This document shows, piece after piece, positions 51,716 through 63,702 of a stretch of 64,000 bases of DNA. The stretch covers positions 124,001-188,000 of the forward strand of contig BAXE01000006.1 in assembly GCA_001310415.1 (NCBI GenBank), in the 5' to 3' direction. Position numbers and translations under genes: made by a program. This stretch comes from Enterovibrio sp. JCM 19048. GTDB taxonomy: Bacteria > Pseudomonadota > Gammaproteobacteria > Enterobacterales > Vibrionaceae. Numbering within the stretch: position 1 is the stretch's first letter; the number at the start of each line of letters is the position of its first letter. A model generated the notes under the pieces. That model worked only from the letters and a program-made list of their open reading frames with translations, ran no database searches and had not been told where the DNA came from.

Positions 51716-51834
51716 GGATACCTCAAACAGTGCGTTTGTCGTTATCCGTGTATCTGCACAGGATGTGCCACTTTCTGATTGCCGTTTAACTCATTGAAAT
51801 ATATCGGCTGTGCTGGTTTTCTCCGCGAATTCTG

Positions 51835-51862
51835 GGGAGATTTCTCATTCTGAGAATCTCCC
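51835..51862 (-). other. intra-operon hairpin
   Basis: GGGAGATTCTC-N5-GAG-A-AATCTCCC forms an 11-pair stem with one bulged base, in the 153-base gap between the DUF4091 gene and the next glycosyltransferase. No T-run follows. It may protect or attenuate the transcript. Confidence 0.5.
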
Positions 51863-55712: not shown

Positions 55713-56833
55713 AGTGCATCCAGCCAAGTTGATAATTCTTGCGCGCGGGCATCCCAGGTGTGGGGGCTGACCGCTTTCTGTTGTTGATGGTTCGACGTTT
55801 TTTGCGCAGCCAGTTCGAGTGCTTCTTCCATTTCGGCAGAGGTGCGTACTACAGAAACAAAACGCATGTATTCGTTCAGTGCAGGAAACGGCGTGCTGAT
55901 AACCGGTCGCCCGGTTGCCAGGTATTCGCGCAGCTTGAGTGGGTTACAGGCACGGATTTGCCCGTTGTCGGTAAAAGGCAGCAGGCTTGCTGTCCAATGC
56001 TGGCTATAGCTCGGCAATTCGTGGTGGTTTTTGGGGCCAAGCAGACAGACGTTGCTGTGCTGGCTAAGTGTTTTTGCTGCGGAACAGGTATTGCCAATAA
56101 ATACGAAATTCCAGTGCGGCATCTTGGCGATGGTTTCATGGAGCAGGGCGTAATCCAGCCAATCGGAAAGTGAGCCGTAGAATCCCGCTGTGGGTTTGCC
56201 GTTTTGCGGTAAATCCGCAGCCATCTTTGCGGGGGTGGAAAACAGGTTGAAGTCCACGCCGTGAGGCAGCAATCGGGTGCGGCATGACGGGAAGCGGCTG
56301 AACAAGGTTTCGCTGGCGGCAAGGATAAGGTCTGCTTTGCTGACCAGCTCGCTTTCACGCTGGGCAACGGTGGCGTGGTCGACTCCCGCCAGTTTGGAAA
56401 AGTCATCGCCGCAGTAATAAACCAGCGTCGAAGCATCGAGCTTCTCTGACATATCCACGGCTGTGGGAAGCGACGTCCAGAGAATAGGGTCATGGAGCCC
56501 GGCTTTTTTCAGGATGGGCTGGAGTTGTTTGGCCAACATGCCGGAAGCCATATTGCGGCCAAGTTGGGTGCGCGGTGCAGGCAGGGTAGAGGGATTCACC
56601 AGCGTCAGGTTTTCAGGAACAGACTGCGTTGTGTTTTCCGCCTTTGGCTCGGACTTGGCGGTAAGCTTGTGCCATACGCGCTTGGCATCGCGCAGGGTAA
56701 ATGTGGGACGGCGCAGGCCAATGGAATTGACCCACACAATTTTTCGCTGCTGCGAGATACAACGGATCAGGTGCTGTGTGCTGGAAGGCAAACCGCCCCA
56801 GTCTTCGCCAAATACAATCAGGTCACGGCTCAT
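55709..56833 (-). CDS. glycosyltransferase, GT4/GT1-like
   Basis: A 374-residue GT-B-type glycosyltransferase. FGEDWGGLPSSTQHLIRC at the N-terminus, YYCGDDFSKLAGVDH in the first domain, and GFYGSLSDWLDYALL and LPFTDNGQIRACNPLKLREYLATGRPVIST in the nucleotide-sugar site. Start overlaps the preceding acyltransferase stop (ATGA) and its stop overlaps the next start. Intact. Confidence 0.9.
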   Translation of the reverse strand: MSRDLIVFGEDWGGLPSSTQHLIRCISQQRKIVWVNSIGLRRPTFTLRDAKRVWHKLTAKSEPKAENTTQSVPENLTLVNPSTLPAPRTQLGRNMASGMLAKQLQPILKKAGLHDPILWTSLPTAVDMSEKLDASTLVYYCGDDFSKLAGVDHATVAQRESELVSKADLILAASETLFSRFPSCRTRLLPHGVDFNLFSTPAKMAADLPQNGKPTAGFYGSLSDWLDYALLHETIAKMPHWNFVFIGNTCSAAKTLSQHSNVCLLGPKNHHELPSYSQHWTASLLPFTDNGQIRACNPLKLREYLATGRPVISTPFPALNEYMRFVSVVRTSAEMEEALELAAQKTSNHQQQKAVSPHTWDARAQELSTWLDAL

Positions 56834-57435
56834 TGTCCTTTCTCCTTGTCGCTCAAGGGGCGGATGACTTTGGCGGGTACGCCGCCTGCGACCACAAAGG
56901 GCGGCAAGTCGTGGGTGACGACGCTACCAGCTGCAACAATGGTGCCTTCGCCGATGGTGACGCCGGCCATGACAGACACGCCGGTGGCAAGCCAGACATC
57001 GTTTTCTAGCACAATATCGCCGACCTGCTCATCAAGCTCCGGCAATCCGGCTGCGCGGTCAGCGGCATTGACCGGATGACCGGGGTAACCCGCCAGAAAT
57101 GCGCGACCAGCGATACGCACGTTGTCGCCAATCACCACTTTGGTGCCGACGGCAATGGTGGTCTGCCAGCCGATATCGATGTTGCTGCCGACAATCAGCT
57201 GGGGGGTGGTTGGGCTGCAGGTGCGGCCAGAAAATGTGGTGTGGCCGGAGACGCGGCAGTTATCGCCGAAAGAAAGGGCAACAGGGCCGCTGACATAAGG
57301 CATACCGCCGTAGAGGTAAAATCCGCGGCCGACCTGATGCACACGACCCTTGAACACCGGCGTCCACCACAGGGTGCGGGTCAGGTTTGCCCACGCGCTT
57401 TGTACTAACACCGTCAGGCGATAAAGCGGCATCAC
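56830..57435 (-). CDS. hexapeptide-repeat acyltransferase
   Basis: A 201-residue left-handed beta-helix acetyltransferase with imperfect [LIV]Gxx hexapeptides (SNIDIG, GTKVVIGDNVRIAG, NDVWLATGVSVMAGVTIGEGTIVAAGSVV) and the usual PPFVVAGGVPAKVIR end. It probably O-acetylates a sugar of the polymer. Overlaps its neighbours on both sides by four bases. Intact. Confidence 0.92.
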   Translation of the reverse strand: MMPLYRLTVLVQSAWANLTRTLWWTPVFKGRVHQVGRGFYLYGGMPYVSGPVALSFGDNCRVSGHTTFSGRTCSPTTPQLIVGSNIDIGWQTTIAVGTKVVIGDNVRIAGRAFLAGYPGHPVNAADRAAGLPELDEQVGDIVLENDVWLATGVSVMAGVTIGEGTIVAAGSVVTHDLPPFVVAGGVPAKVIRPLSDKEKGQ

Positions 57436-57551
57436 GATGAGCTTTGGCGCAGGCAGCTGAACTGCAATACGCCTTTGATGACTTTGAACAGCCCGCGTGC
57501 AACGGGGCTTGGGCTGTTTTTAATCCAGTGTCGGGTCGCTTGCATGGTCAT
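57432..57551 (-). CDS. small peptide, 39 residues, unknown
   Basis: An open frame of 39 codons (MTMQATRHWIKNSPSPVARG...) starts six bases after the GlmS-like mini-gene stop, has GTGGAG 9 bases upstream and ends in an ATGA overlap with the acyltransferase start. The arrangement suggests real coupled translation. Basic and mildly amphipathic; no family recognised. It could also be the remnant of a longer gene. Confidence 0.5.
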   Translation of the reverse strand: MTMQATRHWIKNSPSPVARGLFKVIKGVLQFSCLRQSSS

Positions 57552-57556
57552 GGCAA

Positions 57557-57706
57557 TTACTCCACGGTTACCGATTTTGCGAGGTTGCGTGCCCCTTCCT
57601 GCGCCAGCTGGAACGCGACGCCACGGGCGAAGAACAGGGGATGTTTGGCGTTCACCAGCGTCGCGGTGACAGACGTTTCTGATACGGCTGCAAAGATCCC
57701 ACACAT
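57557..57706 (-). CDS. 49-residue GlmS-like mini-protein
   Basis: It begins MCGIFAAVSETSVTATLV, like the N-terminus of glucosamine-6-phosphate synthase with its catalytic Cys2, and ends ARNLAKSVTVE, which is almost the exact C-terminus of GlmS (RNLAKSVTVE). About 560 residues in between are absent. The frame is intact and AAGGAG lies 9 bases before the ATG, so it should be translated. It is the first gene of the second polysaccharide operon. It may be a deletion relic of a duplicated glmS, or a functional peptide using the GlmS termini. No activity can be assumed, as neither catalytic domain is present. Confidence 0.75.
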   Translation of the reverse strand: MCGIFAAVSETSVTATLVNAKHPLFFARGVAFQLAQEGARNLAKSVTVE

Positions 57707-57807
57707 AACATTTCTCCTTAGTGTAATGGCGCGCCGTAACGCGCTTTTTCAAGGAGATAGCAGGAAGTGAGCCAGTTTTTTAGGTGTTTAAAATCAGAGT
57801 GTTAGAT

Positions 57808-57840
57808 AAAAACGCCATGCGGTAACATGGCGTTTTGTCA
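57808..57840. terminator. bidirectional terminator upstream of the mini-GlmS operon
   Basis: AAAACGCCATG-N6-CATGGCGTTTT hairpin. On the minus strand TTTTTATCT follows, so it would end the small membrane-protein transcript and separate the two polysaccharide units. Confidence 0.8.
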
Positions 57841-57902
57841 TTTTGACAGTCAATACGAAAGGGATTGTGAAGAACTATTGGTTGGCTGTACTGGGACTAG
57901 AG

Positions 57903-58289
57903 TTAGTTTCGGAAAAACTCAATAAGTTGAATTTCTCCCAACGAAGTATTATCCACTTTGATTTGCAGTGCTTCGTTAAACAAAATCGCAAAACCAAACA
58001 TCATGACGAACGAGAAGAGCGTGTTTGCAACGTGGAATCTCCAACCATCAAGTTCATACAACTTAACGACCTTGTGTTTAAGGTAGCTTGTATTTGCAAA
58101 GAACAAATAGACGGATGCCAATACAAAAGTGAAACCGGAAATTTTGTACGCATATTCGAATATAAGTATTTCAGTCTCATAGAAAATTGCGTGAAAGCCG
58201 ATGTAGCAAACAACCCCGCAAAGGGCATAATTTGTTATTCCATCAAATACATCTTTTAGCTTTTCTTTGTCGTGATACCACTTGGACAT
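57903..58289 (-). CDS. small membrane protein of unknown function
   Basis: A 128-residue protein with about four hydrophobic helices (residues ~22-40, 47-65, 92-110 approximately). It starts at 58289 after AAGGAAGAG. No family recognised. It and its flanks are clearly AT-richer than the glycosyltransferase genes on both sides, which suggests a separate origin. It has its own downstream terminator. Confidence 0.7.
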   Translation of the reverse strand: MSKWYHDKEKLKDVFDGITNYALCGVVCYIGFHAIFYETEILIFEYAYKISGFTFVLASVYLFFANTSYLKHKVVKLYELDGWRFHVANTLFSFVMMFGFAILFNEALQIKVDNTSLGEIQLIEFFRN

Positions 58290-58436
58290 TTTCTCTTCCT
58301 TCACAAGCACTTGGAATTTGCTAGTCAGCCCTATTTTTGAGCAAAGTAGCTATCCAGATTTTAACACATTGAATGTAATAACATTCTTATGCTTGCTGTT
58401 TGAAAGTAGGAAATGCGACAAGTGGTCTAGTTGACA

Positions 58437-59861
58437 TCAATTAGTAGTCTGTCTCGAAAATCGCAGCAAAGCGATCTCAGGCAACAGCCCCTGCTTTTGA
58501 GCCGCGTAGGAGGTGGACACCAGCGCGAGCAGCATCAACCCGATGCCTTCCAGCATCGACCAGTCATGGTTGGCCACATACAACCAGAACAGGCAGAAAA
58601 CGGCGCAAAGGGTGAGGTCGCCGACCGGGTAGGCAGGCGGTAAAGGTACTGACTGACAAGGTAAAACAGCAGGAAACGCACGCCTTGGGTGAAAACCAAT
58701 GCCAGCAATACACCGTAAACCCCGTAGCTGTTACCCCACCACCACAGCGTGCTGACAGCAAGAATGGCTGAGACGGCGTTGATACCCATTTGGGCGTACG
58801 TGGTGTCGCTGGCAAAGCTGCCAAGGTTGACCAGCTCTGCCATTTCCTTAAACAGGGCGGCGATGATCAAAAACACCGTAAAGGCCGCCGCCACTGGTAC
58901 GTTCCCGGCAGCATCAGGCCAATAATGATGGGGGCAGCGAAGGCGACAAAAACGGCTATCAGCATCACGGCGACAATACCGTAGCAGGTAAAGCGGGCGG
59001 CGCGTTCTCGGCCGTTCACGTCATACAGCACGTCAAAGCGTTTGGGCATCCACCACATACCGAAAGGTTGCAGCAAGAGCACCACCGCGAGGCCGAATTT
59101 CGCGGCTACTCCAAATTGCGCCACATCTTCTAGTGTGCTGACTTCTGCCAGCACCCAGCGGTCAAGGCCGTTGAGGGTAAAGGCCATCAGCCCGCTAGCC
59201 ATAATAGGCAGGCTGTAGACCAATGACTGTTTGGCAACAGGCGACGAAAAGGCAATGCCAGTCTCGCGGATTTGGATAACACTCAGGATCGCTGCCTGAA
59301 CAACGGCGGCAATCACGCCAGCCTCAAGCACACCATCCACCCCGCGCCCAGCCAGTAGCATTGCTATGGTCAGTGCGGCATGAAATCCGGCGCGGCCGAC
59401 GGCCACACAGAAAAACGTCATGGCGCGGTTTTGCATCCGGATCCAGCCGAGCGGAACCGCAATACAGCCTCCAGTGCCAGCATGATCAGCACCAGTTTCA
59501 GTTGATAAGCGGTGAGGCCACCTGGCAAATCTGAGCCGATTAAATCTGTCGCAAACCAGGCGACAGGCATGACCAGCGAGCAAACCATCAAGGTCAGAGT
59601 GAATATCCGCGCGGCCATGGTCAGGCGCTCTTTTTCTTCACGGCAGCGGCCGACGAAGCGGTATAGCGCATCTTCCAGTCCCAGCCCGACCAGAATGCTA
59701 CCGAGCGCGGCGATACTGCTGATAATTTCGAGTTTACCGAACTCAGCCTGTGGCAACTGGTGGGTGATAAAAGGCAGCATCAGAAGTGAGATGCCTTTCA
59801 TCAGCGCCATACTGCTGCCATACAGCAGGGTCTGCTTCAAAACCGGGGACAGTGCTTTCAT
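58437..59861 (-). CDS. Wzx-type polysaccharide flippase (frame interrupted)
   Basis: Repaired length 475 aa, with 12 or more hydrophobic segments. The N-terminus (TLLYGSSMALMKGISLLMLPFITHQLPQ in part) and SLVYSLPIMASGLMAFTLNGLDRW are typical of the MOP-superfamily polysaccharide exporters that flip lipid-linked units. Three missing bases break the frame, near 59470, 58885 and 58625; the last restores a C-terminal helix region ending RFSRQTTN. Start overlaps the preceding glycosyltransferase stop. Confidence 0.9.
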
Positions 59862-63285: not shown

Positions 63286-63702
63286 TTTGGTTTCACCTGA
63301 ATTCATGAAAAAGACTTGTCGTAGCCAGAGCAACGCAAAGTTAGTGCCACTTAGCTATCTATCTGAAATTTAATGGTTAGCGATGGAATTTCCGCCGAGC
63401 GCTGATTCAAAATGACAAACCTGGTGCTGGGATTCGTCAAAGCGCATGTCAATTTGACGAAAAGGAGGGGAAAGGAAGGAAAGTGATAGCAACAGATTGC
63501 TGCAACTGGGAAAACAAAGGCACTTTCCGGTCGGTTAACATGTGGCGGCAATAAGGAAGAAAATGCATTAACACTGCGGCTCAGGGCGATGAGTACCGGT
63601 ACGTGGGAGTGAGCAGAGCCTGCGAATACCCTTCAAATCTGTAAACATGGCAAACCCTTTGCAAAGTGACTGCCAGAACGTTGAAAAAACAGTGAGGCAG
63701 AG
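63286..63702. other. divergent intergenic region of the polysaccharide cluster
   Basis: About 415 bases between the leftward glycosyltransferase and the rightward epimerase. It should hold promoters for both. A purine-rich patch (GAAAAGGAGGGGAAAGG) lies near 63460. I see no JUMPstart element, gene or RNA. Confidence 0.4.

Follow-up and report, generated by a model that had tools for sequence, protein, structure and literature searches.

Why should a polysaccharide operon begin with a reading frame of 49 codons whose two ends resemble those of glucosamine-6-phosphate synthase (GlmS)? In the 64,000-nucleotide stretch of Enterovibrio DNA that we analyzed (the window), this ORF extends from ATG to TAA over positions 57557-57706 of the minus strand and encodes 49 residues (MCGIFAAVSETSVTATLVNAKHPLFFARGVAFQLAQEGARNLAKSVTVE). 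A gap of 5 nt separates its stop codon (57557-57559) from the start of the next gene (ATG at 57549-57551), and the strong ribosome site ascribed to it by the original prediction was found as an AAGGAG at 57714-57719 on the same strand. That prediction described the ORF as the two termini of GlmS joined in frame with the middle wholly gone, and proposed that it regulates GlmS assembly, acts as the leader of a polysaccharide operon or is a neat deletion relic.

In a search of 61 genomes (its own and 60 relatives), the whole 49-residue ORF occurred in its own genome only. In three genomes of the same genus, residues 1-26 and 8/9-43 matched separate regions of a single full-length GlmS paralogue (E 2.6e-5 to 3.0e-4), within reading frames of 635 or 658 codons, and the other 57 genomes gave no match at E 0.001. 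We also searched viral contigs and plasmids with the ORF, and viral contigs with the first 60 residues of the paralogue, and found no relative. Against the GlmS family models (TIGR01135 and NF001484), only the last 11 residues (39-49) were matched, weakly (E 0.0019) and at 16.6 bits, far below the NF001484 cut-off of 381. No Pfam domain was detected in the ORF at E 0.1. Judged from the matches to the paralogue, the resemblance to GlmS is not due to chance.

The matched paralogue, glmS2, is a second glutamine-fructose-6-phosphate transaminase gene, which in relatives belongs to a syp/eps polysaccharide cluster and immediately precedes its sypM-like gene. In the three same-genus genomes it encodes 607 residues and lies between a flippase gene and a gene for a 240-residue hexapeptide acyltransferase. 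The Grimontia celer copy passes the GlmS models with 777 and 757 bits (cut-offs 381 and 418), and the G. indica copy shares 45-50% identity with the genus's housekeeping GlmS. Set against the 607 codons of glmS2, the ORF consists of three colinear pieces on the minus strand: codons 1-18 (MCGIFAAVSETSVTATLV; 57653-57706), codons 461-481 (57590-57652) and codons 598-607 with the stop (GTGGAGTAA; 57557-57589), the last of which includes the GGAG of the next gene. The middle piece (residues 19-39, NAKHPLFFARGVAFQLAQEGA) is a diverged fragment of the second sugar-isomerase domain. Two internal segments are absent, both in frame: codons 19-460 (442 codons) and codons 482-597 (116 codons). The ends of GlmS are therefore fused in frame, as had been proposed, and both match one paralogue, but the middle is not wholly gone, since codons 461-481 remain. 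At the positions that are invariant across six full-length glmS2 copies, we observed 0 of 12 changes in the first piece, 3 of 11 in the second and 0 of 10 in the third (0 of 22 for the two ends together).

The three pieces lie between the same flanking genes as the gene found at this place in relatives, and the tail of the housekeeping glmS reads AKAVTVE, unlike the end of the relic. By sequence and position, the relic descends from the paralogue in the operon, and the housekeeping gene is not its source. Overall, the ORF is very probably an internally deleted, in-frame remnant of glmS2, from which two in-frame deletions would have removed 442 and 116 codons; the deletion relic of the original prediction is supported, as 6 of 17 relatives have a full-length glmS2 at exactly this position. 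Leu-Val (CTGGTG) stands at the first junction and also at both flanks of the deletion in two of the six full-length copies (G. celer and G003), so that the first deletion may have occurred through a short repeat; the second junction has little sequence in common. Because 558 of the 607 codons are lost, the relic should be unable to make glucosamine-6-phosphate. We propose that glmS2 became dispensable because the housekeeping GlmS supplies this sugar.

A GlmS gene in the same cluster, glmS2, has been described in the syp/eps cluster of Enterovibrio coralii (PMC5801674). At the E. coralii locus (L067) we observed a full-length glmS2 before sypM, with the same ends as the relic, where it encodes a 607-residue enzyme in place of the 49-residue relic of the window. 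The portions of PMC5801674 consulted contain no mention of short forms, and no description of such forms was found in the literature, judged mostly from titles and the beginnings of abstracts. The same paper reports no such cluster in the Grimontia members examined there; G. celer and G. indica (L059, L060) carry one.

The neighbours of the relic show the state of this assembly. Downstream, the sypM-like hexapeptide acyltransferase gene (56830-57551, minus strand) changes frame between 57456 and 57513, which is probably a sequencing error, and upstream the sypK-like flippase gene (58437-59861, minus strand) is split into several frames; the families of both were matched on the G. celer copies, and the syp letters used here rest on family and gene order, not on alignment to Vibrio fischeri proteins. 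Of 13 neighbouring genes in the cluster, eight lie in more than one frame. Elsewhere in the assembly, rpoB (G000:C26) is broken into five pieces, with a change of frame from each to the next, and the housekeeping glmS (G000:C21) into three, with a TGA; frame-breaking indels amount to roughly one per kilobase in these two genes. Most simply, these breaks are base-call indels, and the open frame of the relic therefore carries some risk of base-call error. Caution is also due with any other finding in the window that depends on a broken frame. The assembly is 87.5% complete, and the species is represented by one strain.

Such an assembly could itself have produced the relic, if 1.67 kb of an intact glmS2 had been dropped or collapsed. 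The many frame-breaking indels and the incomplete assembly speak for this reading, but the errors elsewhere are mostly changes of frame, not losses of kilobases. A full-length glmS2 was not found in the assembly, nor was any other glmS2-like stretch: of 11 matches to the GlmS model, eight were compared and none was glmS2 (the three weakest were left out). In addition, the 30-base 3' end of the relic occurs once, the middle piece is altered at positions invariant in the six full-length copies, and the same kind of loss is seen in other species. An artefact is therefore improbable. The 30-base 3' end also served as the query of a repeat search; it gave no repeat family and only one occurrence in the genome with up to 3 mismatches, and the idea of a mobile element or att site was dropped.

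Between the flippase gene and the promoter elements described below, the window carries an AT-rich insert within about 57850-58436 (about 37-42% GC against 52-63% around it), with a 135-residue ORF (57903-58310, minus strand) between the flippase and the SypG-like box; this ORF gave no Pfam or NCBIfam match and had no relative among the 60 other genomes. Directly upstream of the short ORF, where several other genomes have the flippase, E. baiacu and E. norvegicus DSM 15893 encode a protein whose C-terminal tail is hydrophobic; its copy in L052 (2-904) matches DUF4114, and a similar ORF is present in L053.

We surveyed the locus in 18 Grimontia and Enterovibrio genomes, that of the window included, calling the acyltransferase at E 1e-20. 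The sypM-like gene was present in 14 of them. Immediately upstream of it, six carry the full-length glmS2 of 607 residues (G001, G002, G003, G. celer G008, G. indica G010 and G016), and four carry a short ORF, of 49 residues in the window, 41 in E. norvegicus DSM 15893 (G009), 31 in G005 (the same locus as in E. baiacu) and 22 in Ca. E. luxaltus (G004). The 22-residue form is assigned to glmS2 by position only and shows almost no peptide resemblance. A long decayed copy is found in Ca. E. escacola (G012), about 30% identical over 305 residues with stops interrupting the frame, its 5' part lying beyond the contig end. The remaining three genomes, E. sp. ZSDZ42 (G011), E. norvegicus FF-33 (G013) and E. 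calviensis (G015), have no ORF at this place. The check for the same short ORF in relatives thus yielded shorter ORFs in three relatives and not the whole ORF.

As to the number of reductions, we built a FastTree phylogeny from the concatenated DNA of the housekeeping glmS, the acyltransferase and neighbouring sequence for 14 genomes, and a second tree from glmS only for 18 genomes. In the concatenated tree, the window genome adjoins the Grimontia clade with full glmS2 (support 1.0), Ca. E. luxaltus is sister to Ca. E. escacola, and E. baiacu and E. norvegicus DSM 15893 adjoin these two (support 1.0). The glmS-only tree places the window genome likewise (0.999) but differs elsewhere: E. baiacu and E. 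norvegicus DSM 15893 fall, with weak support (0.505), beside E. sp. ZSDZ42 and E. calviensis, and escacola is pulled towards two distant genomes. In both trees the window genome stands with the glmS2-bearing Grimontia, apart from the other short-ORF species. Since escacola still holds a long copy, the reductions in luxaltus and in the E. baiacu/E. norvegicus pair were counted separately, and the concatenated tree implies, by inference, at least three separate reductions and at least one clean loss; this count is subject to the frame errors in the window's housekeeping glmS and to the possibility that the locus moves between species.

Beyond the genus, we scanned the best 80 of 242 named loci homologous to this one. 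In 26 of these 80, the acyltransferase is immediately preceded by a GlmS tail. The stop of this tail begins, in 22 of the 26, at most 9 nt ahead of or 5 nt past the first base of the acyltransferase start; in 11 of those 22 the GlmS stop and the acyltransferase start overlap as a 4-nt ATGA. Close spacing of stop and start is therefore widespread among these best 80 loci. A short ORF directly before the acyltransferase was seen in only three loci among the best 80 of 242, all of them from Enterovibrio, with no comparable ORF outside the genus. According to the record titles, the glmS2-acyltransferase pair, often with the ATGA overlap, is also carried by Alphaproteobacteria and other Gammaproteobacteria (L105, L108, L112, L113, L135 and others).

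Ahead of the relic we observed a sigma-54-like -24/-12 site (TGGCTCACTTCCTGC; 57760-57774, minus strand) at the same distance as in relatives, and a SypG-like box (57835-57849) at the same position as in relatives, with 2 mismatches to the motif TTCTCANNNTGMDWN given in PMC10162802. In 13 of 13 readable leaders (its own and those of 12 relatives), a GG-N10-GC site lies 65-72 nt before the leader start and a box with 0-2 mismatches lies at -142 to -149. Neither motif is rare alone: in raw counts, the leaders contain six further GG-N10-GC matches and the 64 kb window 14 box matches with at most 1 mismatch. Since the boxes of the window, luxaltus and G013 (the last in the other orientation) carry 2 mismatches, it is the shared position, not the motif match, that bears the argument. 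Because the 13 leaders share both elements, the relic is probably the first cistron of a syp-type polysaccharide operon, with predicted control by SypG and sigma-54. As seen in G. celer, the regulator of the cluster contains a sigma-54 activator domain together with receiver and Fis domains, and its best NCBIfam match is LuxO, below the cut-off.

The syp locus of V. fischeri comprises four sigma-54/SypG operons whose first genes are sypA, sypI, sypM and sypP, as described in PMC10804989. The operon studied here is like the sypM operon of Vibrio (Aliivibrio) fischeri in having a sigma-54-like site and a SypG-like box upstream, with acyltransferase, glycosyltransferase and chain-length genes following. 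It is unlike it in its extra first cistron, glmS2 or a short remnant, which is present in 10 of the 14 genomes with sypM and decayed in an eleventh. Two further SypG-like boxes in the window are paired with sigma-54-like sites (51842-51856 with 51756-51770, and 63404-63418 with 63335-63349); they have 0 and 1 mismatch, stand ahead of sypQ-like and sypI-like glycosyltransferase genes and resemble the multi-operon plan of V. fischeri.

The position of the relic at the head of an operon leaves the question of its product. A functional small protein that binds or regulates the housekeeping GlmS or GlmS2 would be consistent with the unchanged catalytic Cys end and invariant C-terminal tail (0 of 22 invariant positions altered), but the ends are about equally conserved between distant full-length copies, which leaves no excess of constraint. 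A contrast of ends against middle (Fisher p 0.005) was dropped as evidence of selection, since more distant pairs of full-length copies behave similarly; for the same reason, the conserved ends do not show that the peptide has a function today. Furthermore, codon conservation, which had been suggested as a check, was not observed between the sister 31- and 41-residue ORFs: 8 of their first 17 codons differ, with 1 synonymous and 7 nonsynonymous changes, against 68 synonymous and 13 nonsynonymous changes over the 240 codons of sypM in the same pair of E. baiacu and E. norvegicus DSM 15893 (Fisher p 8e-5). Purifying selection was thus not detected in this pair, to which the comparison applies rather than to the 49-residue form itself, and the short-ORF peptide looks unconstrained. 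The third short ORF bears almost no resemblance, three relatives have no ORF at all, the window assembly retains no full-length glmS2, and Pfam gave no match to the ORF at E 0.1. Regulation of GlmS assembly, as first proposed, is very unlikely indeed.

If the peptide is not what is kept, its reading frame may be. In translation-coupled leader ORFs, a short ORF with a strong ribosome site stops at the start of the next gene, where ribosomes terminate and reinitiate. The window ORF is alike in layout, differs in coming from a decayed enzyme gene, and is a candidate for such coupling. All four short ORFs start behind the ribosome site of the leader, and their stops fall in the range from 5 nt ahead of the sypM start to within that start: the gap is 5 nt in the window, luxaltus has an ATGA overlap, and the 31-, 41- and 22-codon ORFs have the same kind of ribosome site as the relic, each ending at the sypM start. 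We propose that the ends persist because they carry cis signals, namely the first strong ribosome site and start of the operon at one end and the GGAG and stop just before sypM at the other. Translation of the short ORF would then probably still bring ribosomes to sypM, by termination and restart, as full-length glmS2 would.

The ribosome site of sypM itself has the same dG, -5.9 kcal/mol, in the window as in each of the six genomes with full-length glmS2. It is weaker in escacola (-4.9) and luxaltus (0.4), and stronger in E. baiacu and E. norvegicus DSM 15893 (-8.6 and -8.7) and in the genomes without the ORF (-7.7 to -8.5); all three genomes without the ORF have AAGGAG directly before sypM. 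The predicted accessibility of the sypM start in the mRNA showed no pattern between genomes with and without the ORF. Coupling fits luxaltus, where sypM lacks its own ribosome site, and perhaps the window genome as well. It is possibly not required in E. baiacu and E. norvegicus DSM 15893, because their sypM ribosome sites are stronger than -5.9.

A plain neutral relic shares the same origin and differs on coupling: both deletions would have been in frame by chance, the ORF would have no role, and the ends would survive only because losing part of the promoter or of the sypM start would be harmful. When single random deletions sparing the ends were simulated on the G. indica gene, 33% kept the frame, so that one third of such deletions would retain it. 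The premise that in-frame survival of both ends is rare in decayed copies is accordingly weak, all the more as the ends hold translation signals that are probably needed. The unconstrained peptide of the E. baiacu/E. norvegicus pair and the 3 of 11 invariant middle positions changed in the window ORF also agree with neutrality, to which we give an even chance. Against it stand the open short ORFs ending at the sypM start in four of four remnant genomes, probably from three reductions, and the luxaltus sypM without a ribosome site of its own. Three independent frame-keeping events would have a probability of about 0.04, and frame retention is suggestive only as evidence for selection. Thus, of the proposed role as a polysaccharide-operon leader, the position stands, as first cistron behind a sigma-54/SypG-like promoter, while retention for translational coupling is a possible but unproven role, with somewhat less than even chances.

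Taken together, these results account for the odd 49-residue ORF and warn against reading it as a GlmS regulator. They show that in Grimontia and Enterovibrio an operon probably controlled by SypG starts with a dedicated glmS paralogue. Of some interest is that related species have repeatedly reduced this gene to short ORFs, which presents at one promoter a small natural series of full gene, decayed copy, four short remnants and clean loss. This series suits the question of whether an operon that has lost its first protein still requires translation of the first cistron. More tentatively, and on balance doubtfully, the first enzyme gene of the operon may repeatedly and independently have been turned into a minimal leader cistron of 22-49 codons, with the strong ribosome site retained and the end lying on the sypM start. 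If so, selection would preserve the traffic of translation and not the protein, and this would be a repeated route from dead genes to leader ORFs.
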